Assembly (NCBI RefSeq): GCF_039851975.1
Contig: NZ_CP156660.1
Span: 3,167,035 to 3,231,034 of the forward strand
Length of the DNA stretch: 64,000 nucleotides
Direction: 5' to 3'
From: Desulfoscipio sp. XC116
GTDB taxonomy: Bacteria > Bacillota > Desulfotomaculia > Desulfotomaculales > Desulfallaceae
Part shown: positions 26,941 through 39,322 of the stretch, piece after piece
Layout of the letters: every line of letters starts with the position of its first letter
Numbering within the stretch: the stretch's first letter is position 1
Made by a program: the position numbers and the translations under genes
Notes under the pieces: model-generated
Seen by the model: the letters and a program-made list of their open reading frames with translations, nothing else
What the model was told of the DNA's origin: nothing
Databases searched by the model: none

Positions 26941-28050
26941 CTAATTTTTTTTAACCGCCCCCGTCAGCAAAGCATCTATTTGCCCGGCGGTAAGTGCCTG
27001 ATGGTAAAAAAGCCGGTAAAATTCACGTATTTCCTCCCGCATGTCCAATGCAAAGTAATCCGGATAGAGCAAATTTCCCATCCACGGAATACCGATAAGG
27101 CGGTTGGCTCCCGGCGGCATATCCAACCAGTTGTAAGGATAGCAGGGAGCGCAAAACACCCTGTCGTTTTGCACGGCCGCAACCGAATTCCACGCTTCCT
27201 CGCCCCCGGAGAGAATATCAAAGAAGCTGCCGTCACTTTTTACCCCGGCATGCCCCACGCTGTAGGATGCGATAATCACCTCGGGATTCCACAACAGCAC
27301 CTGTTCCATATTCACTGTGAGCCGCCCGTCCGTTTTAGCCGGGAGAGTTACAATATTTTCCCCGCCTACAATATCAATCACCTCGGAATGCGACGAACCC
27401 CGCGGCGCCGTCTGCAAACCATCGGAACCCTGGGCGTAATAAACACTCAATCGCTCGGCTTCCGGAATCAGCGCCGCCTGTTTTACGGCTTCCGCAAGAA
27501 CATCTTCGCTGTAGTTCGCCAATAGTTCCGCCCGCTCCGGCCGGGATAAAATATCACCCAAAAACCGATAGGCCTCCGGAATCTTATTTAAGACAATGTC
27601 CGCGAGCACTACCGGGATCCCCATCCGTTTTTGAAGCGCATCCGCGTCGGCAATTGTATTTTGGTCCAAGTAGGTCATCATTAAAATCAGATCGGGAGAG
27701 CGCCGCATAATCTCTTCCCGGTTGGCGGTGTCGCCGCTTCCCTGCATCAATCCCAAGACAGGCAGCCCCAAATATTGGGGAGCGATATATTCCGCTTCTT
27801 CCGGGGACAGCTTTATGCACCACCCCAGCAGCAGTTCGGGATCTATTGTGTACAACGCCACCACGCCCGGCTGCCCCGTGGAATAAACCTGCTTGACTTG
27901 GGCGGGGATTTCCACCCTGCGCCCCGCCATATCCGTCACAACTCGCATGCCGGCTTGTGGCACCCCCTCCCGATTACCGGAATCTCCCTGACAGGCAGTC
28001 GTAATAATGCTCAAAAACAACAGCAAACAGATAAAAGCATTCTTTTTCAT
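26941..28050 (-). CDS. Substrate-binding lipoprotein of the FecB/BtuF type
   Basis: A 369-residue lipoprotein; signal peptide with lipobox ITTAC (Cys20). It has the two-lobe pattern of the PeripBP_2 family: RVVTDMAGRRVEIPAQVKQV at the start of the first lobe, RRSPDLILMM, ADIVLNK at the linker helix, LLWNPEVIIASYSVGHAG and VFCAPCYPYNWLDMPPGANR in the second lobe. The family binds Fe-siderophores, heme or cobalamin and hands them to FecCD-type permeases. It is the first gene of the nine-gene operon and its promoter carries both regulator palindromes (28296-28360). Two cysteine-free acidic Glu residues that usually contact the permease could not be assigned with certainty. Start ATG 28050; the upstream spacing AGGGGG fits. 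Confidence 0.88.
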   Translation of the reverse strand: MKKNAFICLLLFLSIITTACQGDSGNREGVPQAGMRVVTDMAGRRVEIPAQVKQVYSTGQPGVVALYTIDPELLLGWCIKLSPEEAEYIAPQYLGLPVLGLMQGSGDTANREEIMRRSPDLILMMTYLDQNTIADADALQKRMGIPVVLADIVLNKIPEAYRFLGDILSRPERAELLANYSEDVLAEAVKQAALIPEAERLSVYYAQGSDGLQTAPRGSSHSEVIDIVGGENIVTLPAKTDGRLTVNMEQVLLWNPEVIIASYSVGHAGVKSDGSFFDILSGGEEAWNSVAAVQNDRVFCAPCYPYNWLDMPPGANRLIGIPWMGNLLYPDYFALDMREEIREFYRLFYHQALTAGQIDALLTGAVKKN

Positions 28051-28095
28051 GATTTTTTTACACTTTCCCCCTCCTGTCGACCCGGCACCACAATG

Positions 28096-28143
28096 CCGGA
28101 CCTAAAAGCCGTTCTCCTTTCAGGCAAACGGCTTTAGGTCCGC
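28096..28143 (-). other. Hairpin in the leader of the uptake operon
   Basis: CGGACCTAAA-GCCGTT and AACGGCTTTTAGGTC form a stem of about 15 bp with one bulge and a loop of about 14 nt, about 46-93 nt before the first gene's ATG. There is no U-tract. It may regulate translation or processing of the leader. Confidence 0.5.
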
Positions 28144-28189: not shown

Positions 28190-28290
28190 CACCACTTTAA
28201 AAATTTCTAAAACATCACCCCTCGCAATTATGCCTGTTAAATTTCCAATATCTTCATTCAAGCACCTGTTTGTGGAAAATTTAGGGCCAA
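28190..28290 (-). ncRNA. Conserved leader RNA of the binding-protein gene
   Basis: The transcribed leader just after the promoter resembles the leader of the S-layer gene (35640-35732) over about 80 nt. Shared blocks are AAATTTTC ... GGAAA(A)TT, which can pair, then ACAGGCATAATTGCG and GGGGTGATG followed at once by TTTTAG or CTTTTCTAA. The pairing arms differ in sequence yet stay complementary. The GGGGTGATG-TTT-TAG block looks like a ribosome binding site with a two- to three-codon open frame. A cis-acting RNA element is inferred. Confidence 0.45.
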
Positions 28291-28295
28291 TTTTA

Positions 28296-28360
28296 GTTAG
28301 AATTATCTAACCTGTCAAAGTATAGCATTAAAAAATCAAATCGTCGGTTGTTCTGCCAAC
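28296..28360 (-). promoter_or_regulatory. Promoter of the uptake operon with CRP-like and DtxR-like sites
   Basis: Read on the minus strand: palindrome GTTGGCAGAACAAC (28360-28347), 22 nt, -10 TATACT (28324-28319), 7 nt, palindrome GTTAGAATTATCTAAC (28311-28296). The first palindrome would be centred near -41.5, the class II activator position for a CRP-family protein; the second covers the start point, a repressor position. The same layout with identical 22 nt spacing occurs at 35739, 37579 and 38641. Confidence 0.8.
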
Positions 28361-28454
28361 ATTTATCAACAAATATTTATGAAACCGAAGAAAATTACTT
28401 CGCATCACTTGCCGGTGCGTTTCCTAAACCAGTTCCCCGACAACATTTATCGAC

Positions 28455-28673
28455 AAAAAAACAGGCTGTTTGCAAGCAGATTAACTGTTTGCAACAGCCT
28501 GTTTACTTATGACTTGGGGTTAAGACCGCCTGTCGGCCCACATTAGATCATAGTTTTGTTTACCAGTCTTTGCATTATGGCCGCCACCTCGGCGCGGCTC
28601 GCTTCGCCTCGCGGGTCAAGCGCGTCGCCGTCCTTGCCTTTAAGCAAGCCGCTGCCCACCGCCCAGCCCACGC
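28455..28673. repeat. Left direct repeat: copy of the S-layer gene 3' end
   Basis: Matches 30154-30340 in the same orientation. It contains the terminator hairpin (ACAGGCTGTTTGCAAGCAG arm) and then the end of the SLH-coding sequence with only one or two changes over 125 bp, plus about 30 extra bases between them. Together the two repeats bracket a 1.5 kb cassette. Confidence 0.88.
28543..28673 (-). pseudogene. Fragment of the S-layer protein gene (last SLH repeat)
   Basis: About 43 codons identical or nearly so to the C-terminus of the 1771-residue protein (GLLKGKDGDALDPRGEASR and AEVAAMMQRLVNKTMI, here with small changes at the very end). The coding sequence breaks off abruptly at about 28673, so this is a truncated duplicate and not a gene. 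Confidence 0.85.
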
Positions 28674-28697
28674 CTCCCTCAAATAGATTTGCAATTC

Positions 28698-29056: not shown

Positions 29057-30058
29057 ATGAACAAGAAACAAATAGAAGGCCGGTGGTTGGCAACTATGAC
29101 CGCGGAACAACCGAAAGACCTTTTAAGCCCCTTAATTGATCTGGTATTTAAAGCGCTTTTTGCACGGGAAGAACCAAGGAGCAGGATTATTCTCATTGAT
29201 CTGCTCAATTCATTGCTGGGTTTACAAGGCAACAATAAAATTACCTCAATAACCCACCTGAACCCTTTTAACTACAAAGAATATCCGGGCGATAAAAGTT
29301 CTATCTTAGATATAAAAGTGATGACCCACGCCAAAGAGAGGATTAACATTGAGGTTCAAGTCAACGACGTCGACAACTTCCGCAAAAGGAGCTTATACTA
29401 CTGGGCCCGGATGTATTCGGAAACCATTGCCGAATCCGAAGCGTACACCACGTTGAAGAAATCCATCGTCATCAACATCCTGGACTTTGATATCATCCAT
29501 GAAACCGGCAGATACCACACCCAATACAGGATCTTAGAGAAGGACGACGGTTTTTTATTGCTGGAAGATCTGGAAATACATTATTTTGAATTAAGGAAGT
29601 TCCTTAGCCAGACGCCTCCGGGGGAAATGAACGCGGTGGAATATTGGCTGACCTTTATGAAAAATGCCGGTAAGCCCGATGGCAAAGAATTGCTCCAAAA
29701 ACTGGCGAAAGAAAAGGAGGAATTAGCTATGGCCATGGATATGTTGGCAGAGATAAGCGCCGATGAGAGACTGCGGCAAAAAGCCTATGCGCAGGAAAAG
29801 GCCAGACTGGACGCTATCTCCAGAATCAAATATGCCGAACTGAAGGGCATGGAAAAAGGTATAGGGAAAGGGAGAATTGAAGGGAGAATTGAAGGAAAGG
29901 CTGAATTGTTAATTAAGCAAATTTCCAAACGGTTCGGCAGCCTGCCGAAGGATTTACAGGTACTGGTCATGAATGCCGACGATGCGGTTCTGGATGCGAT
30001 TGGTGAGGAAATTTTCGATTTGCAGTCTCCTGATGATATTTTAAAGCTTCTAAATTAA
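29057..30058 (+). CDS. Rpn-family PD-(D/E)XK nuclease/transposase-like protein
   Basis: A 333-residue protein of the Rpn/PDDEXK_2 family, proteins annotated as recombination-promoting nucleases or transposase-like (YhgA). The N-terminal signature LSPLIDLVFKALFAREEPRS is typical; the nuclease core has the acidic residue in SSILDIKV and the E-x-Q of INIEVQV. The C-terminal third is a charged helix region ending in Gly-Lys-Arg repeats (KGIGKGRIEGRIEGK) and a four-helix tail (RFGSLPKDLQVLVMNADDAV). Family members cut DNA and raise RecA-independent recombination in E. coli. It is flanked by direct repeats of the neighbouring S-layer gene's 3' end and by a type I toxin gene. Start ATG 29057 has a weak ribosome binding site; ATG 29096 is an alternative. 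Confidence 0.88.
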   Translation: MNKKQIEGRWLATMTAEQPKDLLSPLIDLVFKALFAREEPRSRIILIDLLNSLLGLQGNNKITSITHLNPFNYKEYPGDKSSILDIKVMTHAKERINIEVQVNDVDNFRKRSLYYWARMYSETIAESEAYTTLKKSIVINILDFDIIHETGRYHTQYRILEKDDGFLLLEDLEIHYFELRKFLSQTPPGEMNAVEYWLTFMKNAGKPDGKELLQKLAKEKEELAMAMDMLAEISADERLRQKAYAQEKARLDAISRIKYAELKGMEKGIGKGRIEGRIEGKAELLIKQISKRFGSLPKDLQVLVMNADDAVLDAIGEEIFDLQSPDDILKLLN

Positions 30059-30153: not shown

Positions 30154-30340
30154 AAAAAAACAGGCTGTTTGCAAGCAGATTAACTGCTTGCAACAGCCTG
30201 TCAACCAACGTTAAATCATAGTTTTGTTTACCAGTCTTTGCATCATGGCCGCCACCTCGGCGCGGCTCGCTTCGCCTCGCGGGTCAAGCGCGTCGCCGTC
30301 CTTGCCTTTAAGCAAGCCGCTGCCCACCGCCCAGCTCACA
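30154..30340. repeat. Right direct repeat: 3' end of the S-layer gene with its terminator
   Basis: This is the resident copy of the repeat at 28455-28673. Its first part (30154-30205) is the terminator of the S-layer gene on the minus strand: ACAGGCTGTTGCAAGCAG ... CTGCTTGCAAACAGCCTGT followed by TTTTTTT. The rest is the last 43 codons of that gene. Confidence 0.88.
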
Positions 30341-33300
30341 CCGTCCGCGGCCCAGCCGGATATTTGATCCGCGTCGCTGTACTGCGCCGTATCGCCCTGG
30401 ACGAGGGTGTCCACGCCAACGAGTTTAGCGTATTGATACATCATGGCAGCAATTTCTTCCCGGGTAACGTTTTTACCCGGCTCAAAGTTGCGGCCCGTTC
30501 CCGAGACAATTCCGTTTGCGGACGCCCAGGCCACCGGTTCGGCGTACCAGGCGTCTTCCGCTACGTCGGCGTAGTCAATGTCTCCGCCGTCGGGTGTGCC
30601 CGCCAGCCGGTGCAGTACCGAAACCAGCATCCCGCGGGTCATGGCTGTGTTCGGTGCAAACTCTGTTTCGGATACACCGCTGAACAGTTCATGCGAGGTG
30701 GCAAACGCAATCGCGTCTCGGCCCCAGAAGCTGTCGTCCACATCATCGAAGCTGCGGGAGCGATCCACAAATTTGATTGTGCCTGTTCCGTTGAGTACGG
30801 TTAGGAGTTGCCCTTCGTTAACAACGGATTTTTTGATGGTTTCTTCACTGCCGTCGGCTTTTACCAGCACGGCGACCATACCGTCTCCCGCGCCTTCGAC
30901 CGGAACGGCGAGCCTGATGCCGCCACTGATGTCGATAACTTCGTCATTAAGTCTGATTTCAAACTTAACGGTGTCCGCGGCGATTTTTTCAATGGTGAAT
31001 GTGACTTTTTCATCTTCTTTGTCTTTGGCGTCTTTTTTGTCTTTTTTGTCCTTTGCATCTTTTTCATCTTCTTTAGCGGTGATTTTGGCCAGTATATCGT
31101 TGGATACGGTTACGTTGGCAATGTCCGTTTTGAGCACCAGCGCCGCCGTGATTTTTTCGATAATACCGGCCACCGCAACGCCGGTAAGTTCAATGTTTAT
31201 TTTGCTAACCTCACCGGTAATCGTCGGGACAATCACAATTTCGTCTTCATTCTTTTCAATCAATGCCTTGATCACTGCTTCTATTGCTTCATCAGAGATG
31301 GCAAGGGTCGCCACACCGTCTTTCGCTTCCACTGCGGCGTCTATATAAACCAAACCCGTTTCCGGATCTTCAACCGCGGTGCCCACTTTTTCATTGTTTT
31401 GAGCATTTTCATCCGCTTTCAGCAGGTAGGTGCCGCCGTGGGTCAGTTCCAGGGTTACGAAGTCGTTCTCAACCACCGCGCTGCCGCCGCTGTAGTAGGT
31501 GGAAGGATAGTGCAGTGAGTCCACCCATTCGCCGGATTCTACATCAGTATGCGCAACTCTGCCGTCGCAGCTGCCCTCGACATAGGATATGGCAACGGCG
31601 GTGCCGTCGTCGAAGTAGTCGGAGACGTTGATATTTACGTAAACCTTGCCTTCGATGGCGGTGCGCCACACGAATTTCGCCTGCATGCCGCCAGACCTCT
31701 TGGATAGGGCGATATCTGTGTAATAGGGCTGCGCCGTGTTGCATTTTTCGATGTCTTCGCCATTAAAGACCCAGGAGTATAACTCTTTGCCGCCGGAGTT
31801 ATTGTTTTTCGTTACGTAGACTTTCCACCACTCGGATTCACCGGATATCTCGTTCAGCGCCTTCCAGGCAATTTTGGACTGCTTGCTGTTGGCCAGATGT
31901 GCCTGGTAGGGGTCGTTCTGGCTGCCGCAACCACCGTCTTGCTTTAAATCGTTCTTTAAGATATAGCGCATCCACTCGGGATACAGGGTCAGGTTCGAGG
32001 TTACCTCGCTGTCGAAGTCGTATTCTCTGGTCAGTTCTTTGTCGGTGTACCAGGCCAGTACGAGGTAGCCGTAGCCGCTGTCAAAGAAGCCGGGATCTTT
32101 GGCCTCATTACCGCTCTTGACGCTCTGCTCCTTAATGGTAGCATTGGGGTTGCCGGTGTCGGGATCGTTGCCCGTGACAAAGGTTACGGTGTAGGTTTCA
32201 CCTGGGCCGGGGCCGGGGCCGCCGCCATCCGTCCACTTGGCGTAAAGAATGACGTGTTGCGTCAGGGACTCTTCAAAATTAAACGGGGCGGTGCAATCAT
32301 AATCGGTGTACCAGCCGCCGAAGACATAGCCTTCTCTCACCGGATCGGCAGGCTTGGTGACTTTGGCGCCGGGAGCTACAAGCTGGGGAGGAATTCTGTC
32401 GCTATGGGCCCCGTCGGTCATAAATTCGGCCACTTGTCTTGGATCCTGCGGGCTATCGTCATCCTGCGCCTTGACCAGTTCAAAGTAACCGCCGTTATAG
32501 AGGTCGAAGGTGATGTAACCGTCGGTGACCACGGCAGAGGTGTTATTCTTGAAGTAGATGGGTTCCAAGGCCATAAAATAGGCATCGTTAGCTGTAGCCT
32601 TTATTTCTGACGCATGGTACAGGCCACGATTGGCCGCCCCCAGCAGATAGTTGATGTGAACAGTATCCTTTTCATTAAAATAGCCGCTCACATCCAGTTT
32701 ATGGGTTACCGGGCCCGGAAAGTCCCTGGCATACGTATGGTACATCAAGACTTTTTTGCTGTCCGCTCTCACGGCCTGCAGTGCGTCGGTCGCCGCCGCC
32801 AGCCGTTCGGGATAGGTCCCCTCCAGGTAAAGGGAATGCGATTTAAATCCATTGGTAATGATGGTGTCGGAGGGATTCAAAGCCACTCCGAAATCGCGGG
32901 GACTCCGGAACCAGCCGTCCGCGTTGCTGGGCAAGAGCTCGCTGCCGTCGATAAAGAAGGAGGCGTTCAGCCGTCCCGTGGACATATCCCTGTCCTCAAC
33001 CATGAGGCTAAAAGGAGTGCCCAAGTATGTTTTGCCCTCGGTCTCATAGCCCGCGATCAGGTTCCAGATGCGGAAAGTGGAGCCAATGAGTGGGACGATG
33101 GATCCGGCCAAACCGTCCTTGGTATAGAAAGCCCCCACCATGGTATAGGGATCTTCCGCTATTCCTGTTCCCTTGTAGTTCTTCTCCCAGGGAGTATTGC
33201 CCGGATTCTGGTCGAAGCTGCCGATTCTTACACTTCCTATGGTCATACCGCTGTCGGCAAGCACATATGCACCGGCCGGCCCGTAAAAATCAATTTTTTG

Positions 33301-35526
33301 CCCGGTCACCACGGCGTAAGTGGTGTAACCGTCAATGTGGGCAATGCTTACAATAGCGGTATCGGCAAAGCCCATGCCGGACACATCCACACTCTGGACT
33401 CCGGGCTGGGTCGCAGTATAGTCGGGGTCTCCATCAATGCTCCATTTGGCATAAAGGGTGATAGAGGAGGTTACCGTATCGGCAGCGAAATCCCAGGCTT
33501 GCGTGCAAGCCTCATCCTTATACCAGCCGCCAAAGATAAAACTCTCCCGCACAGGATCATCTGGTTGGCCAATGGTGCTTCCCTTCAGCACATCACATAC
33601 GGGAGCAATCTCAGAACCGCCTCTGGAATCGAAAGTGACGCGATAATTATCTTTTACGGTAACGGTAATTACCGGCGCTTCCACACCGCTTTTCAAAACG
33701 CAATTCCCGGGAAGCACCGCGGTAAAAGCATACACACCGGGCGTAGCGCCATCATAGTCCGGCGATGACGACCAGGTGACCGGAATCAGCGCCGACTGAT
33801 TGCCGTTTGCCAGGGTCGCTTCCAGTTCAGCAGGCAGACCGATATTCTCCTCGGTGGTACCGTTGTCAACCTCAATGCTGTTGGTCAGATAGCCAAAGGC
33901 CTTGATGATCCAGTCAATGCCCCCGGAGAGATGATCCGGCAGATCATTGGACTGAGCAACCGAGTTCGGAAGGTTCTTTAATGTGGGCAGTTTGCCGGCT
34001 TCCAGGTTCCAAACGCCGCCGTCCCAACTCAGGGGAGAATCGGCAAAAGGCGAGGAATCGCCTGTCAGTTCCGCATATGTTATGTCTTTGCCATCCTTTA
34101 AATTACCAATCCGAGCAGCGGCAGGGACATAGAGTAGTTTTCCGCCTCTAAAAACAGGTATCCCCTCAAAGGCGCAGTTCTGTGACATCTCACAAGAACC
34201 GGAAGATGATTTGGATAAAACCCGACCAATTTCGCCGGAGCTAACTTTCGTTTCAGTAACGGAGGAATTCAGCGCCACGCTGGTTGCAACATTACCATTT
34301 GTGACAATGCCGCCAGAAAACTCCGCTGCGTGCACAATAGCCGTGCTGTAGCAATTTTTAATTGTCCCTCCGTTGGCGATTCCCGCCGCACTGACCGAAG
34401 AAGCGGTTACGCTTCCCTTGGCATAGCAGTTTAGCACAACACTTGCTGGCAATTTAAAATTTCCGGCAATACCTCCCGCATAGCTCTCGGAGGCAGTTAT
34501 ATCGGCATCCACGTAGCACTCATAAACCGCATCTTCACTAGATCCGCTCTGCCCTGCAATTCCGCCTACATAGCCTTTTCCGCTCACAGAACCGCCGGTA
34601 AAGCTGCACCGGGAAACCTCCCAACCATCGTTCATGCAGCCGCATATTCCCCCGGCAGAGTTCTTACTTGTTTCAACCTGAGAGTTGAGAACGGTGCAAG
34701 AGGAAACAACACCACCCGTTTTATCCGCACAACCTAATATCCCGCCTATATAGCTACCCGATGAGGTGATGATTGAAGCGGCTACCGTGCAGCTATTAAT
34801 AATAAAAGTCCCTTCAGCTTTGCCCACCAAGCCTCCACTAAAGGACGACGTTGCTGTTATCGAAGAATTTATCAAATGAGCATTCTCGATAACGGCAGCC
34901 TCGATTTTTCCGGCCACCGCACCAACGTAATTCTTTCCATTAACACCCGCCCCGGACAGAGTTAAGTTTTTCACCGAGCCGCCCGCGCCAATCACGCCAA
35001 ACAGGCCTACATAACCTGTGGTTTCAGCGACATGCAAACCGCTGATGGTCTTATTGGCACCGTCAAAAGAGCCCGCGAATTTTAACCCGTTCTCCTGGCC
35101 GATAGGCGCCCACGGGTGGGGGGACAAATCAATATCCCCGATCAGGATATATGCTTTTTCGGCATAGGTTTCACCGCTTACCGTATCCTCGACTCCACTG
35201 TTGACCAGTTGAGCCAGGTAAGCCAGCTGGCCCCCGTCGGCAATCTGATAGGGCTCATCATCACTGCCTACGCCGCCGGCAAATGAATCCGCCGCATAAT
35301 CCCCCCATGTATAAACCGCTTCGGTAACTGAAGAATTCTCCAAATCAAGCAGTTCATCCGCAACCGGAGGTATGTCCGAGTCATAAACCGAATCCGTCAC
35401 CGCTGAAGGCGCGTCCAAATCCGGCAATGGTTCCGCCCCCATGCCGGCGGGCACCGACAAACTAAACAACATAACAAGAGACAACAGGAGCGACAGTCCC
35501 TTGCGCATATTTCTTCTTGCTTTCAT
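30211..35526 (-). CDS. Giant S-layer protein with GLUG, InlB-type and RDF/HG domains
   Basis: A 1771-residue exported protein. Signal peptide about 1-30. Residues about 90-430 hold GLUG-type repeats (GGLVGKAEG, GGILGCADKTGG, GGIAGQSGS, GGIAGNFK). An Ig-like region (about 560-640) and three InlB B-repeat/Flg_new-type modules ending GGWYKDE...LYAKW (about 645-700, 1050-1105, 1120-1195) separate two copies of the shared domain: a long one (about 710-1040; RDMSTGRLNASFFIDGSEL, ARDFPGPVTHKLDVSGYF, YLLGAANRGLYHASEI) and a short one (about 1200-1370; YVEGSCDGRVAHTDVES). A Lys/Asp tract (about 1480-1505) and three SLH repeats (about 1590-1770) follow. It should coat the cell wall and present the domain outward. 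Its own promoter at 35739-35803 has the CRP-like and DtxR-like palindromes. Confidence 0.85.
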   Translation of the reverse strand: MKARRNMRKGLSLLLSLVMLFSLSVPAGMGAEPLPDLDAPSAVTDSVYDSDIPPVADELLDLENSSVTEAVYTWGDYAADSFAGGVGSDDEPYQIADGGQLAYLAQLVNSGVEDTVSGETYAEKAYILIGDIDLSPHPWAPIGQENGLKFAGSFDGANKTISGLHVAETTGYVGLFGVIGAGGSVKNLTLSGAGVNGKNYVGAVAGKIEAAVIENAHLINSSITATSSFSGGLVGKAEGTFIINSCTVAASIITSSGSYIGGILGCADKTGGVVSSCTVLNSQVETSKNSAGGICGCMNDGWEVSRCSFTGGSVSGKGYVGGIAGQSGSSEDAVYECYVDADITASESYAGGIAGNFKLPASVVLNCYAKGSVTASSVSAAGIANGGTIKNCYSTAIVHAAEFSGGIVTNGNVATSVALNSSVTETKVSSGEIGRVLSKSSSGSCEMSQNCAFEGIPVFRGGKLLYVPAAARIGNLKDGKDITYAELTGDSSPFADSPLSWDGGVWNLEAGKLPTLKNLPNSVAQSNDLPDHLSGGIDWIIKAFGYLTNSIEVDNGTTEENIGLPAELEATLANGNQSALIPVTWSSSPDYDGATPGVYAFTAVLPGNCVLKSGVEAPVITVTVKDNYRVTFDSRGGSEIAPVCDVLKGSTIGQPDDPVRESFIFGGWYKDEACTQAWDFAADTVTSSITLYAKWSIDGDPDYTATQPGVQSVDVSGMGFADTAIVSIAHIDGYTTYAVVTGQKIDFYGPAGAYVLADSGMTIGSVRIGSFDQNPGNTPWEKNYKGTGIAEDPYTMVGAFYTKDGLAGSIVPLIGSTFRIWNLIAGYETEGKTYLGTPFSLMVEDRDMSTGRLNASFFIDGSELLPSNADGWFRSPRDFGVALNPSDTIITNGFKSHSLYLEGTYPERLAAATDALQAVRADSKKVLMYHTYARDFPGPVTHKLDVSGYFNEKDTVHINYLLGAANRGLYHASEIKATANDAYFMALEPIYFKNNTSAVVTDGYITFDLYNGGYFELVKAQDDDSPQDPRQVAEFMTDGAHSDRIPPQLVAPGAKVTKPADPVREGYVFGGWYTDYDCTAPFNFEESLTQHVILYAKWTDGGGPGPGPGETYTVTFVTGNDPDTGNPNATIKEQSVKSGNEAKDPGFFDSGYGYLVLAWYTDKELTREYDFDSEVTSNLTLYPEWMRYILKNDLKQDGGCGSQNDPYQAHLANSKQSKIAWKALNEISGESEWWKVYVTKNNNSGGKELYSWVFNGEDIEKCNTAQPYYTDIALSKRSGGMQAKFVWRTAIEGKVYVNINVSDYFDDGTAVAISYVEGSCDGRVAHTDVESGEWVDSLHYPSTYYSGGSAVVENDFVTLELTHGGTYLLKADENAQNNEKVGTAVEDPETGLVYIDAAVEAKDGVATLAISDEAIEAVIKALIEKNEDEIVIVPTITGEVSKINIELTGVAVAGIIEKITAALVLKTDIANVTVSNDILAKITAKEDEKDAKDKKDKKDAKDKEDEKVTFTIEKIAADTVKFEIRLNDEVIDISGGIRLAVPVEGAGDGMVAVLVKADGSEETIKKSVVNEGQLLTVLNGTGTIKFVDRSRSFDDVDDSFWGRDAIAFATSHELFSGVSETEFAPNTAMTRGMLVSVLHRLAGTPDGGDIDYADVAEDAWYAEPVAWASANGIVSGTGRNFEPGKNVTREEIAAMMYQYAKLVGVDTLVQGDTAQYSDADQISGWAADGVSWAVGSGLLKGKDGDALDPRGEASRAEVAAMMQRLVNKTMI

Positions 35527-35579: not shown

Positions 35580-35732
35580 CGCTCCGCCCTTTTCCGCTTT
35601 TTTACTATGCCCTTGTTCCAATGCGCCTTTCCCCCAAAATGTCTTTTAGAAAAGCATCACCCCCGCAATTATGCCTGTCAATTTTCCAACTATCTGCATC
35701 AAAACGCCTGTCGGCACGAAAATTGAGGCTGA
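35580..35732 (-). ncRNA. Leader RNA of the S-layer gene, similar to that at 28190
   Basis: Within this 5' leader, about 35640-35732 resembles the leader of the uptake operon: AATTTTC ... GAAAATT arms, GACAGGCATAATTGCG, GGGGGTGATG followed by CTTTTCTAA. The remaining bases to the ATG are C/T-rich on the plus strand and show no hairpin of note. Confidence 0.45.
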
Positions 35733-35738
35733 ATTTTA

Positions 35739-35803
35739 GTTAGAAATGCCTAACTCAGCAAAGTATACCACTTAAAAACTAAATTGTCGGTTGTCTCACC
35801 AAC
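35739..35803 (-). promoter_or_regulatory. Promoter of the S-layer gene with both palindromes
   Basis: Minus strand: GTTGGTGAGACAAC (35803-35790), 22 nt, TATACT (35767-35762), then GTTAGGCATTTCTAAC (35754-35739). Spacing equals that at 28296 and 38641, so the gene should be co-regulated with the uptake operon. Confidence 0.8.
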
Positions 35804-35902
35804 ACTTCACGAACAAACAAATTATTTGTTAAAAATGTGTATAAAATTATCGCAAAAGTAAATGTATTGGTTTAGAACAAAACAACACCTAAAAAGAAAA
35901 AA

Positions 35903-35932: not shown

Positions 35933-35978
35933 TTAAGGATAGGGGAAACAGTTTTGCCCGGTCTTACCGATTTATTGG

Positions 35979-36230
35979 TAGCAAGTGGTATATTCTCCAC
36001 CGTAGCATGTTGTGAATGTAACATAACCATCGGCGCCGGCATCGGTAGTCATAGCATCATCAGTAAAGACGCTAAATAACCCGCCCCATTGATAGTTATC
36101 CAGGCAATCAGGATCTCCGTAACTTTATCTTGTATTTGACTTCAGCTTGTAGCCGGCACCAAATACGCTTTGGGATTGCTTGCCTGAACAAAAGCACAAA
36201 TTTCTACCACACGAGGTTAACAATAATCGC
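35979..36230 (-). pseudogene. Decayed second copy of the 231-residue secreted protein gene
   Basis: The minus strand reads GDPDCLDNYQWGGLFSVF ... ADGYVTFTTCYGGEYTTCYQ-stop, closely matching the C-terminus of the neighbouring intact gene (GDPDYLDDYSSYVFSDYDTT ... EDGYVTFTTWHGGDYTIIEQ). Upstream the similarity continues with deletions and frame breaks (GGTGCCGGCTACAAGCTGAA versus GGAGCTGGAAGCTACAATCA). Only the last quarter survives. Confidence 0.8.
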
Positions 36231-36346
36231 TTTCTTATATTCATATGCGCCAGATTTCCCCATCTCGTTATTTGCAAGCAATGGGGCGGAACATTTTGCG
36301 CTGCCCCCCTAAGCTCATATTCATTATTCCGCCCTATTTTACGAAG

Positions 36347-37042
36347 TTATTGTTCGATAATCGTATAATCTCCTCCATGCCATGTCGTAAATGTAACATA
36401 ACCGTCTTCAACTGTGGTATCATAATCTGAAAAAACATAAGAAGAATAATCGTCCAGGTAATCCGGATCTCCGCTGCCAAACAGCTGATTGTAGCTTCCA
36501 GCTCCGCACGTATAATATCCGTTGCAAGATCCATCCTCATATTCCACAGTAACATCTGTATCATCATAAATATCCGTAGGAACTTTCACTGTCATAGGAA
36601 CAGGAAACATTGTACGGCAACCCATTACAACTTCAGTTTCACTTGAATCACCGCTAGCTGCAATATTTAGATAATACGGCTGCTTAGTCGCCATAGTTGG
36701 TACCAGGTCTTGATCTATTGCACTTCCGTCAAAGGTATAGGAATACATCAACGGCATACTATCATCATTGTTTACATAGCGTTCCGCACTCCATACATAA
36801 TCCTCGAAATCATCGAAGTAAGGGTTTTCAATTCTTGACAATGTTTTCCAAGCAAACTTCTCCACATCGTTAGCAGAATACATATACACAGTATAAGGCG
36901 CTGTCGGATTTTGAGTTGTTGCAGGCTGCCATGCCTCCACTGTTGTCACTGTGGCAGCATATGCCGGAGCCGCCGCGCAAGTAATCAACATTAAAACGAC
37001 CAAGAAAAATGTTAACTTTTTCCTACCTGGGATTTTTGTCAC
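36347..37042 (-). CDS. Secreted 231-residue protein, stand-alone form of the shared domain
   Basis: Signal peptide about 1-29 (ending PAYA), then one short copy of the domain found in the cluster's surface proteins: NPTAPYTVY, KFAWKTLSRIE, QPYYLNIAASGDSSETEV, TVKVPTDIYDDTDVTVEYED, GSCNGYYTCGAGSYN and a C-terminal VTFTTWHGGDYTI. The position that holds His in the other copies is a Cys here (YYTCG). There is no anchor, so the protein should be released or held non-covalently, like a hemophore. The start is GTG 37042 with AAGGA about 11 nt upstream. It lies downstream of the decayed CRP copy, whose promoter (37579-37643) may drive it. Confidence 0.75.
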   Translation of the reverse strand: MTKIPGRKKLTFFLVVLMLITCAAAPAYAATVTTVEAWQPATTQNPTAPYTVYMYSANDVEKFAWKTLSRIENPYFDDFEDYVWSAERYVNNDDSMPLMYSYTFDGSAIDQDLVPTMATKQPYYLNIAASGDSSETEVVMGCRTMFPVPMTVKVPTDIYDDTDVTVEYEDGSCNGYYTCGAGSYNQLFGSGDPDYLDDYSSYVFSDYDTTVEDGYVTFTTWHGGDYTIIEQ

Positions 37043-37284
37043 GAAAAATCAATCCTTTCTTTTTTTAATTTTAATTTTTCCCGCAAAATTTTATTTGCGG
37101 TTTATGCTTTTCCTGATGTCTTTTCAAAATAATTAACTTCTCTAAATAATCATCACCTCCATTTCCCAAATAGTTTTCATTAACCCCTCGTTGCCAAAGG
37201 CAAGGATAGTGGAACGAAATCAGCGTTCGGTTCGTCATTCACAGTAAACTGGCTTTGATGACAGTCTACATCCCTCGGCCCGCA

Positions 37285-37525
37285 GCCCGCATTTTGCATA
37301 ATTCGTGGAAGAGAGCACTGCGGTTTACCCCCGTATAGCTGGTTAGTTCTTTTCTGTTCCTACAAACACGAAACGTGGTGCTGCCACCATGCTAAGCCGC
37401 CATGGAATGTAGAAAAGCCAAAATACACTGACGCAGAAAACGGTAAGGAATAATCTCCAGCTTGTTGATTTGTTTTTTCAATATGGAAAAGCATGCCCAG
37501 CATATTGAGAAGGATTTTACTAGGG
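37285..37525 (-). pseudogene. Decayed second copy of the CRP-family regulator gene
   Basis: The minus strand aligns with the C-terminal half of the intact regulator at 37807-38532: QINKLEIIPYRFLRQ versus QISKIEIISHRSLRQ, then, after a stop and frame breaks, the HTH region (GGGGTAAACCGCAGTGCTCT versus GGGGTTAACCGCAGCGCGCT). The N-terminal sensor half is gone. Its promoter region (37579-37643) is still well preserved. Confidence 0.82.
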
Positions 37526-37578: not shown

Positions 37579-37643
37579 GTTTGTACCATCTAACTTTTTT
37601 AAGTATAGCACCGAAAGATCATATTGTCTGTTGCCACACCAAC
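37579..37643 (-). promoter_or_regulatory. Relic or active promoter with both palindromes
   Basis: Minus strand: GTTGGTGTGGCAAC (37643-37630), 22 nt, TATACT (37607-37602), then GTTAGATGGTACAAAC (37594-37579), a DtxR-like site with one half degraded. It stands before the decayed regulator copy; it could now serve the secreted-protein gene at 37042. Confidence 0.7.
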
Positions 37644-37806: not shown

Positions 37807-38532
37807 TCAATCTCCCATCGCAAGAGTGCAAGGATAAAATGATTTAATCAGTTGAATTTCTTTTTCATCAAGCAAAGTAAATTGGTTTTTGTTGAAACTC
37901 ACCAATCCGTCCGCGCACATTTTACTTAACTCGTGAGAAAGCGCGCTGCGGTTAACCCCCAGATAACCCGCAAGCTCTTCCCTATTCATATAAATACAAA
38001 AAGTAGTGCTGCCGTACTGAGCCGCCATTGAGCACAGGTAAGCCCAAATTCGCTGGCGAAGGGAACGATGAGAAATAATCTCTATTTTGCTGATTTGCTT
38101 TTCTACAATATGCGCAAGCATTCCCATCATATTGGCAAACATCTTGGATTTAATTTCGTGGGGCAACAAATTATCAAAAAACCTTTCATACGGGAAAAAG
38201 ATTACCTCCGCATTACTCGCGCATACAACTGTCACAGGACAACGCTTGGTGGGATGCGCCGCCGCTTCCAAAGCAACCACCTGCCCCTGACACCGGTTTT
38301 GAATCAGTCTTTGCTTGCCGTTCCGGTCTATCCTTTCGCTTATTAAACGACCGGAACAAACTAAACCGATACTCTCTACCAAGTCGCCTTCATTCATCAC
38401 TACCTCATCGCGTAAATAGGTTTTATGTGCCGGTCCGAACAAATCAAAAAGATTGCCGCAGTCATTTGGGGACAGCCCATGAAATAACAATGAGTTCTTC
38501 ATTATTCGGACCGACTTTTCTTTTATACTCAC
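37807..38532 (-). CDS. CRP/FNR-family transcription regulator
   Basis: A 241-residue regulator. Residues about 15-135 form a cyclic-nucleotide-binding-type sensor barrel (RDEVVMNEGDLVESIGLVCSG, FPYERFFDNL), followed by the long dimer helix and a winged helix whose HTH is MNREELAGYLGVNRSALSHE (about 180-200). Cysteines at several sensor positions (DCGN, VCSG, NRCQG, KRCPVTVVC) could mean redox or metal sensing, as in FNR-like proteins; no cAMP-binding consensus is complete. It should bind GTTG-N6-CAAC palindromes at four promoters here, including its own, and activate. Start GTG 38532 has a poor ribosome binding site; the ATG 30 nt inside is an alternative. Confidence 0.88.
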   Translation of the reverse strand: MSIKEKSVRIMKNSLLFHGLSPNDCGNLFDLFGPAHKTYLRDEVVMNEGDLVESIGLVCSGRLISERIDRNGKQRLIQNRCQGQVVALEAAAHPTKRCPVTVVCASNAEVIFFPYERFFDNLLPHEIKSKMFANMMGMLAHIVEKQISKIEIISHRSLRQRIWAYLCSMAAQYGSTTFCIYMNREELAGYLGVNRSALSHELSKMCADGLVSFNKNQFTLLDEKEIQLIKSFYPCTLAMGD

Positions 38533-38569: not shown

Positions 38570-38640
38570 TTTAATTTTAAAAATTACTTGTTTTTTTGCT
38601 GGAAATAATTATCCGCTTACTGAATTTTAAATTCCTTTAA

Positions 38641-38706
38641 GTTAGAAATATCTAACTGGAGAGAATTATACCATATGAAAGCAACTTCGTCTGTTGTTGC
38701 GCCAAC
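38641..38706 (-). promoter_or_regulatory. Autoregulated promoter of the CRP-family gene
   Basis: Minus strand: GTTGGCGCAACAAC (38706-38693), 22 nt, TATAAT (38670-38665), then GTTAGATATTTCTAAC (38656-38641). Same architecture as the operon and S-layer promoters, implying positive autoregulation and repression by the DtxR-like protein encoded divergently. Confidence 0.8.
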
Positions 38707-38853
38707 ATTTTTTTTTAAAACTTATTTTTTTATAATAAAAAACGTAAAAAACAAAAAATTGGTTGCTTTTTACAACTTTTTCACGGGATCAGACTTAGAA
38801 ATTATCAGTAATTGCTGTTGCACTCACCGAAAATAGATGATAAGCTAATATCG

Positions 38854-38920: not shown

Positions 38921-39322
38921 ATGAAAAAATTGACTTTTACCATGGAAAATTACCTTGAAGCAATATATGAACTATCAAGCGAAGGAACAGGAGTCAGGTT
39001 GTCCGACATTGCCGAGCGGATGGGGGTGACAAAGGCCAGCACCAACAGCGCCATGGCGACCCTTTCTAAAAAGGGGTTAATCTTTAATAGAAAATATAAG
39101 GAAATATATCTTACCCCGACCGGGCGAAAACTAGCTGAATTCACTTCCCAAAAACATCGCGTTGTCCAGCAGTTTTTTACAGAAATTTTAAATATCGACA
39201 TGGCTATTGCCGATAAAGATGCCTGTGCCATTGAACATGTAATCAGCGACGATTCAATCAATGCCATGCGTAAGTTTTTACGGGACAATGGAATAACAGT
39301 GAATGAGCCGGCAAAGATATAA
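38921..39322 (+). CDS. DtxR/MntR-family metal-dependent repressor
   Basis: A 133-residue regulator. The N-terminal winged helix (MENYLEAIYELSSEGTGVRLSDIAERMGVTKASTNSAMATLSKKGLI) is typical of DtxR/MntR/IdeR. The C-terminal dimerisation and metal-binding part (about 70-125) holds the expected ligands in HRVVQQFFTEILNID, KDACAIEHVISDD. Length is close to MntR (about 140) and it lacks the SH3-like third domain of DtxR. Family members repress metal-uptake genes when Mn2+ or Fe2+ is bound. Five NTTAG-N6-CTAAN palindromes in the cluster, one before this gene, are the proposed targets. ATG 38921 follows AAGGAG at 8 nt. Confidence 0.92.
   Translation: MKKLTFTMENYLEAIYELSSEGTGVRLSDIAERMGVTKASTNSAMATLSKKGLIFNRKYKEIYLTPTGRKLAEFTSQKHRVVQQFFTEILNIDMAIADKDACAIEHVISDDSINAMRKFLRDNGITVNEPAKI

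Follow-up and report, generated by a model that had tools for sequence, protein, structure and literature searches.

An important question raised by this locus of Desulfoscipio sp. XC116 is why two genes with different coding regions share a similar upstream sequence. In the 64,000-nt stretch of DNA that was analysed (the window), positions 28190-28290 and 35640-35732 had been described in the initial annotation as a possible new cis-regulatory leader RNA. Our results suggest that what is shared is probably a duplicated promoter with its 5′ UTR, under the control of iron and a CRP/FNR-type regulator, and that a new riboswitch is unlikely. A cis-regulatory region is indeed common to both places, but the part of it that can be explained seems to consist mostly of DNA control signals.

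Extent of the similarity and the genes of the locus

Self-comparison of the 14-40 kb part of the window aligned positions 28209-28373 with 35651-35817 (76% identity, E 7e-25), both on the minus strand. The leaders are thus similar as proposed, but not over about 80 nt: the block covers about 165 bp and begins ~80 bp upstream of 28190-28290, at the promoter dyad. With a 136-bp query, the two leader places were the only matches in the genome itself at E <= 0.001 (5e-66 and 4e-18). In the same self-comparison (14-40 kb), the upstream portion, 28291-28364, also resembled 38636-38710, where the CRP/FNR gene has its promoter (76%, E 7e-6). The leader proper, of about 83 nt, is common to the solute-binding protein (SBP) and S-layer genes only, and its two copies are separated by 7.4 kb:

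28213..28295, minus strand: leader copy 1, SBP gene; 67/82 ungapped columns identical to the S-layer copy, 39/42 in the 3′ block
35655..35738, minus strand: leader copy 2, S-layer gene; orphan GGGGTGAT at 35663-35656

Both leaders hold ACAGGCATAATTGCG (28238-28224 and 35678-35664) and GGGGTGATG (28221-28213 and 35663-35655), and the ATG of the latter is followed by TTT TAG in one leader and by CTT TTC TAA in the other, as had been pointed out from the first. The genes concerned are as follows:

26941..28050, minus strand: Peripla_BP_2 solute-binding protein, first gene of an iron-complex/heme-type uptake run reaching 14389
30211..35526, minus strand: S-layer/SLH surface protein of 1771 aa
36347-37042: small surface-protein gene, downstream of the fourth promoter described below
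37807..38532, minus strand: CRP/FNR-family regulator (cNMP_binding, HTH_Crp_2), candidate for the GTTGN6CAAC dyads
38921..39322, plus strand: DtxR/MntR-family regulator (Pfam), candidate for the GTTAGN6CTAAC boxes

The genes lying between 28050 and 14389 specify a Peripla_BP_2 protein, surface proteins with SLH and LRR, an ABC ATPase and a FecCD permease, together with a MoxR-type ATPase (AAA_3), a transglutaminase-core protein and one protein with no Pfam match. A surface domain that also lacks a Pfam match was found by a peptide-pattern scan of 84,980 species, with one genome per species, in three genomes only, which together contain four such loci: MAG.313 (two contigs), Anaerovorax and Marinisporobacter. 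The small, S-layer and SBP genes are consecutive in the latter two, and the S-layer and SBP genes are consecutive in MAG.313. An AlphaFold model of this domain built from the four sequences reached a mean pLDDT of 51, and a profile search against solved structures returned matches at E 0.58 and above only. Surface proteins with SLH domains and leucine-rich repeats serve iron acquisition in the IlsA/Isd-type systems of Bacillus cereus (PMC2777315); the surface proteins here are alike in carrying SLH domains and leucine-rich repeats, but the two sit on separate proteins. No NEAT domain was detected in the proteins of the locus by Pfam at E 0.001.

Promoter dyads and the iron-type operator

Alignment of three upstream regions revealed the same order of elements: GTTG-N6-CAAC, then TATAAT/TATACT, then GTTAG-N6-CTAAC. 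The promoter type is present in four copies within ~10 kb, before the SBP, S-layer, small surface-protein and local CRP/FNR genes. The pattern GTTGN6CAACNGAC has four matches in the 4.26-Mb genome, each of them on the minus strand of this locus, and its reversed control has one genome match. The promoter elements are listed here:

28347..28360, minus strand: CRP/FNR-like dyad GTTGGCAGAACAAC of the SBP-operon promoter, one of the four genome sites of GTTGN6CAACNGAC
28319..28324, minus strand: extended -10 (TGC)TATACT of the SBP-operon promoter, read from the sequence; inferred +1 near 28312
35790..35803, minus strand: CRP/FNR-like dyad of the S-layer gene promoter (pattern search)
35762..35767, minus strand: extended -10 (TGG)TATACT of the S-layer gene promoter (sequence and promoter scan); predicted +1 near 35752
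37630..37643, minus strand: fourth CRP/FNR-like dyad, upstream of a CRP remnant and the small surface-protein gene (pattern search)
38693..38706, minus strand: CRP/FNR-like dyad in the CRP/FNR gene's own promoter (pattern search and self-comparison)

Class II CRP/FNR promoters are characterised by a dyad centred at about -41.5 together with an extended -10. In all four copies the dyad centre lies 29 nt upstream of the extended -10 (TGN-TATAMT), which would place it at about -41.5 from the predicted start site. The likeness extends to the poor -35 and to the regulator gene, which adjoins the locus and carries the same site in its own promoter, so far as this candidate activator is the one that acts here. 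The GTTG-N6-CAAC dyad itself we take to be neither a classic CRP nor a classic FNR site. A search for proteins related to the CRP protein yielded, at E 1e-30, only two other genomes of the order (33% identity), and the dyad is missing from the 3.6-kb loci inspected there. Among the papers listed by literature searches, none dealt with the locus or the dyad. In the S-layer copy, a sigma-70 scan preferred CCGACA-N17-TATACT; in the SBP copy it preferred TTGACA-N17-TAAAAT (11/12) and left TATACT unreported. As a rival promoter, TTGACA-N17-TAAAAT would make the transcript begin within the leader, near 28284. In both copies the dyad was flagged as terminator-like by the scan.

The second element, GTTAG-N6-CTAAC, is located at about +1 in three of the four promoters, and the fourth has no full iron box:

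28296..28311, minus strand: iron-type operator GTTAGATAATTCTAAC of the SBP promoter, about +1 to +16
35739..35754, minus strand: iron-type operator GTTAGGCATTTCTAAC of the S-layer promoter (pattern search)
38641..38656, minus strand: iron-type operator GTTAGATATTTCTAAC of the CRP/FNR gene promoter (pattern search)

Is this box connected with iron elsewhere in the genome? The pattern GTTAGN6CTAACT was found at 10 places, with 15 matches counted over both strands and none for the control; the places comprise the three promoters of this locus and seven places covered by six further loci that were read. In three of these six, the box stands before FeoB (FeoB_N, E 5e-59), before an ABC ATPase, and before a flavodoxin gene that precedes one for a radical-SAM protein; the remaining three (L102, L107 and L115) showed no clear iron gene, and one of them encodes a Trep_Strep membrane protein. 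Among the relatives, Anaerovorax odorimutans carries four tandem boxes (three N6, one N5; L079:2137-2253) upstream of the orthologous gene set, and the Marinisporobacter MAG has a GATAATTATTATC dyad, presumably Fur-like, upstream of the same set. Such a distribution makes it possible to suggest that the box is probably an iron operator. It resembles DtxR/IdeR iron boxes in having TTAG...CTAA dyads before feoB and other transport-type genes and in the DtxR-family gene that adjoins the locus, but it is a predicted operator whose half-sites are 6 bp apart, which is not the canonical spacing. The textbook DtxR box is more compact. The DtxR/MntR-family protein is a candidate, and another regulator could possibly use the box.

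Read together, these elements would make 28190-28290 and 35640-35732 the 5′ UTR parts of a promoter-leader cassette within one iron-acquisition locus, each copy being transcribed on the minus strand from its extended -10 promoter. We infer that a CRP/FNR activator, most likely the product of 37807-38532, binds GTTG-N6-CAAC at -41.5 and switches the promoter on, and that an iron-responsive repressor, possibly the DtxR-family protein of 38921-39322, binds GTTAG-N6-CTAAC at +1, where it would block the promoter when metal is plentiful. What had been suspected to be a riboswitch would thus become a small, testable regulon of four promoters, a local CRP/FNR-type activator and an iron-type operator, which includes a rarely found S-layer/transglutaminase iron-uptake gene run.

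Structure, coding capacity and distribution of the leader

Another important question is whether the leader acts as a folded RNA. A riboswitch or other structured RNA would use its 5′ arm (AUUGGCCCU / UUCAGCCUC) to mask GGGGUGAU, with a ligand or metal releasing or stabilising the pairing. The pairing arms AAATTTTCC/GGAAATTT and AATTTTC/GAAAATT are present in the leaders, as initially reported, and in one MAFFT alignment RNAalifold returned 20 pairs, none of them broken and three with changes on both sides. The energy of this fold beat 98.5-99% of column shuffles (p 0.015 with 1000 shuffles, 0.010 with 300; p 0.03 against a mutated-parent null), and eight windows of the CRP control gave p 0.21-0.72. 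However, the claim that the arms change together hinges on the placement of one gap: an alternative alignment with fewer leader mismatches (15/82 vs 20/84) showed no significant structure (p 0.51), and in the first alignment the antisense strand came close to the score of the sense strand (p 0.03). Because the A/T-rich arms slip by one base, a pair of sequences is not enough to decide on covariation. Folded singly, neither leader window was better than its shuffles (z +1.3 and +0.2). The full SBP leader does fold better than shuffles (z -3.4; S-layer leader, z +0.2), and it contains one feature that is not found in the S-layer leader:

28082..28142, minus strand: strong hairpins between the shared leader and the SBP start

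Rfam gave no match above the gathering score in the window, and the leaders themselves yielded chance matches to snoRNAs only (E 8.5 and 2). In addition, the sequence that would be masked has no gene start or terminator to control. With no Rfam match, no convincing third copy and no robust covariation, the riboswitch suggested initially is not supported, and we consider a structured RNA of this kind very improbable.

Still less credible is a leader-peptide (attenuation) device, the other mechanism that had been put forward. One reading of the S-layer leader gives MQIVGKLTGIIAGVMLF, and in both copies GGGGTGATG is followed by one or two codons and a stop. Single-base indels nevertheless shift the frame between the copies, the longer possible open reading frames have no Shine-Dalgarno (SD) sequence, the ATG within GGGGTGATG is too near its own SD, and a scan found no terminator within either leader. 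Neither conservation of a leader open reading frame between the two copies nor the parts of an attenuator (a frame with an SD, a terminator/antiterminator pair) were detected. With different frames in the two copies, and no shared open reading frame that has a usable SD in front of it, the device lacks support.

The same conclusion on distribution was reached with several types of searches. No convincing third leader copy was found in 60 relatives, 16 family genomes, 113 order/class genomes and 398 phylum genomes, sets that overlap and include the genome itself. Outside that genome, BLAST against the 60 relatives returned only short pieces (best E 2.6e-5, 33 bp, in G028), and those at the three loci examined (L003, L004 and L008) are in or at coding sequence. 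The sole outside match of a pattern search in the 16 family genomes (at most two mismatches), in G006, reads as coding sequence by eye. The covariance model that had been suggested as a check recovered the two copies alone in 113 class genomes. In the 398 phylum genomes, it gave two 26-bit matches, both within open frames; the models in the 113 and 398 genomes were run with strict Infernal filters, by which weak relatives may be lost. Beyond the two copies, a sequence-only model returned eight matches at E 0.003-0.033 in the 113 order genomes. Five of them (L092, L095, L096, L097 and L099) overlap open frames that are 129-342 codons long. L093 and L094 represent a single shared site, flanked by two open frames of ribosomal appearance (by eye), and L091 (in G006) has no gene in phase and is surrounded by what look, by eye, like insertion-sequence remnants. 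At the loci of the related systems, the best hit of the structured model was 15.0 bits (E 0.49), and the leader was not found beside the same genes in the three relatives, the S-layer start of MAG.313 being cut by a contig end.

Age of the duplication and the orphan Shine-Dalgarno sequence

Other duplicated pieces occur in the same locus. Positions 37185-37484, between the fourth promoter and the small surface gene, contain a C-terminal remnant of a second CRP/FNR gene, with 51% identity to the intact one over 100 aa, and 35956-36031 is a remnant of the 3′ end of the small surface-protein gene, with 74% identity (56/76) to 36331-36406.

The leader pair can be compared with these pieces. At the nucleotide level, the CRP gene and its remnant agree in 188/269 ungapped positions (70%), and the two copies of the S-layer 3′ end, at 28455-28674 and 30154-30342, agree in 180/189 (95%); the leader pair, with 67/82, falls between the S-layer duplicates and both the CRP and small-gene remnants. 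The leader may be a functionless 5′ UTR that was copied along with its promoter and has not yet diverged. The existence of only two copies, 7.4 kb apart and with no convincing homologue elsewhere, agrees with such an origin, as do the relatives that have the same genes without the leader and the identity of the whole leader, which is not clearly above that of the small-gene remnant (67/82 vs 56/76, p 0.15). However, in the leader's 3′ block, which runs from GAAGATA to GGGGTGATG, 39/42 positions are identical, more than in the promoter spacer taken with the discriminator (15/25, Fisher p 0.002) or in the CRP remnant (188/269, p 0.0007). The blocks were picked after the alignment had been seen, so that these p values are too favourable. 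We regard simple copying as a substantial possibility, somewhat short of an even chance; it opposes the leader step alone and shares the promoter step, so that its likelihood and that of the cassette overlap. The two outcomes that had been named from the start as speaking against a new leader RNA, a lack of further homologues and similarity explained by duplication, are largely what was found, with two reservations: the duplication is an old one, and the leader 3′ block is more conserved than its surroundings. Taking the sequence evidence as a whole, we somewhat favor an old two-copy promoter-leader cassette under CRP/FNR and iron control, with a leader that ends in an SD.

What could the conserved end of the leader do? 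In the cassette reading, the transcript would carry an 83-nt leader ending in an extended SD that has no usable start codon:

28214..28221, minus strand: extended Shine-Dalgarno GGGGTGAT, no start codon at a usable distance

The motif GRGGTGAT occurs 12 times in the window on the two strands. Three occurrences, at 28221, 35663 and 37159, lie in the SBP, S-layer and small-gene leaders with no start codon in range, and three more (27282, 20431 and 17768), inside genes, also lack one. Pairing with the 16S tail was scanned in 11 leaders chosen by the analyst, with 200 shuffles each. It was modestly better than in shuffles for the SBP leader (-14.0 kcal/mol, 24/200 shuffles as good) and the S-layer leader (-16.0 kcal/mol, 8/200). 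The values were -18.4 kcal/mol (3/200) for the small gene, -18.8 (2/200) for an S-layer leader of G015, -11.1 (3/200) for the Marinisporobacter S-layer gap and -14.5 (16/200) for the Anaerovorax small gene; in five of the 11 leaders no 16S-tail site was better than chance (60-169/200). The two leaders thus combine anti-SD complementarity with the lack of a translation start, as in the STAB-SD of Bacillus thuringiensis cry3A, where 30S subunits bind to the leader and RNase J1 is thereby blocked (PMC4113751). The cry3A element is likewise a non-initiating, SD-like 5′ UTR sequence more than 100 nt upstream of the gene, but it is near the 5′ end of the major transcript (PMC4113751). Ours lies ~90 nt inside the predicted transcript.

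If the leader end is functional, its likeliest role would be to hold a 30S subunit and so slow the 5′ decay of the surface-protein and uptake mRNAs. Taken alone, this stabilising role is tentative and, in our estimate, rather doubtful; if it holds, a Bacillus mRNA stabiliser would be extended to S-layer iron-uptake genes. A further reading, which we consider improbable, is an RNA element of recent origin, confined to this locus, whose 5′ arm masks or frees the orphan SD and in this way sets the stability of the iron-acquisition surface mRNAs; if true, it would add a post-transcriptional layer on top of CRP/FNR and iron control.

One additional observation concerns the two copies of the S-layer 3′ end, each of which is accompanied by a hairpin: a PDDEXK_2-family transposase-like gene (29057-30058, plus strand) lies between them.
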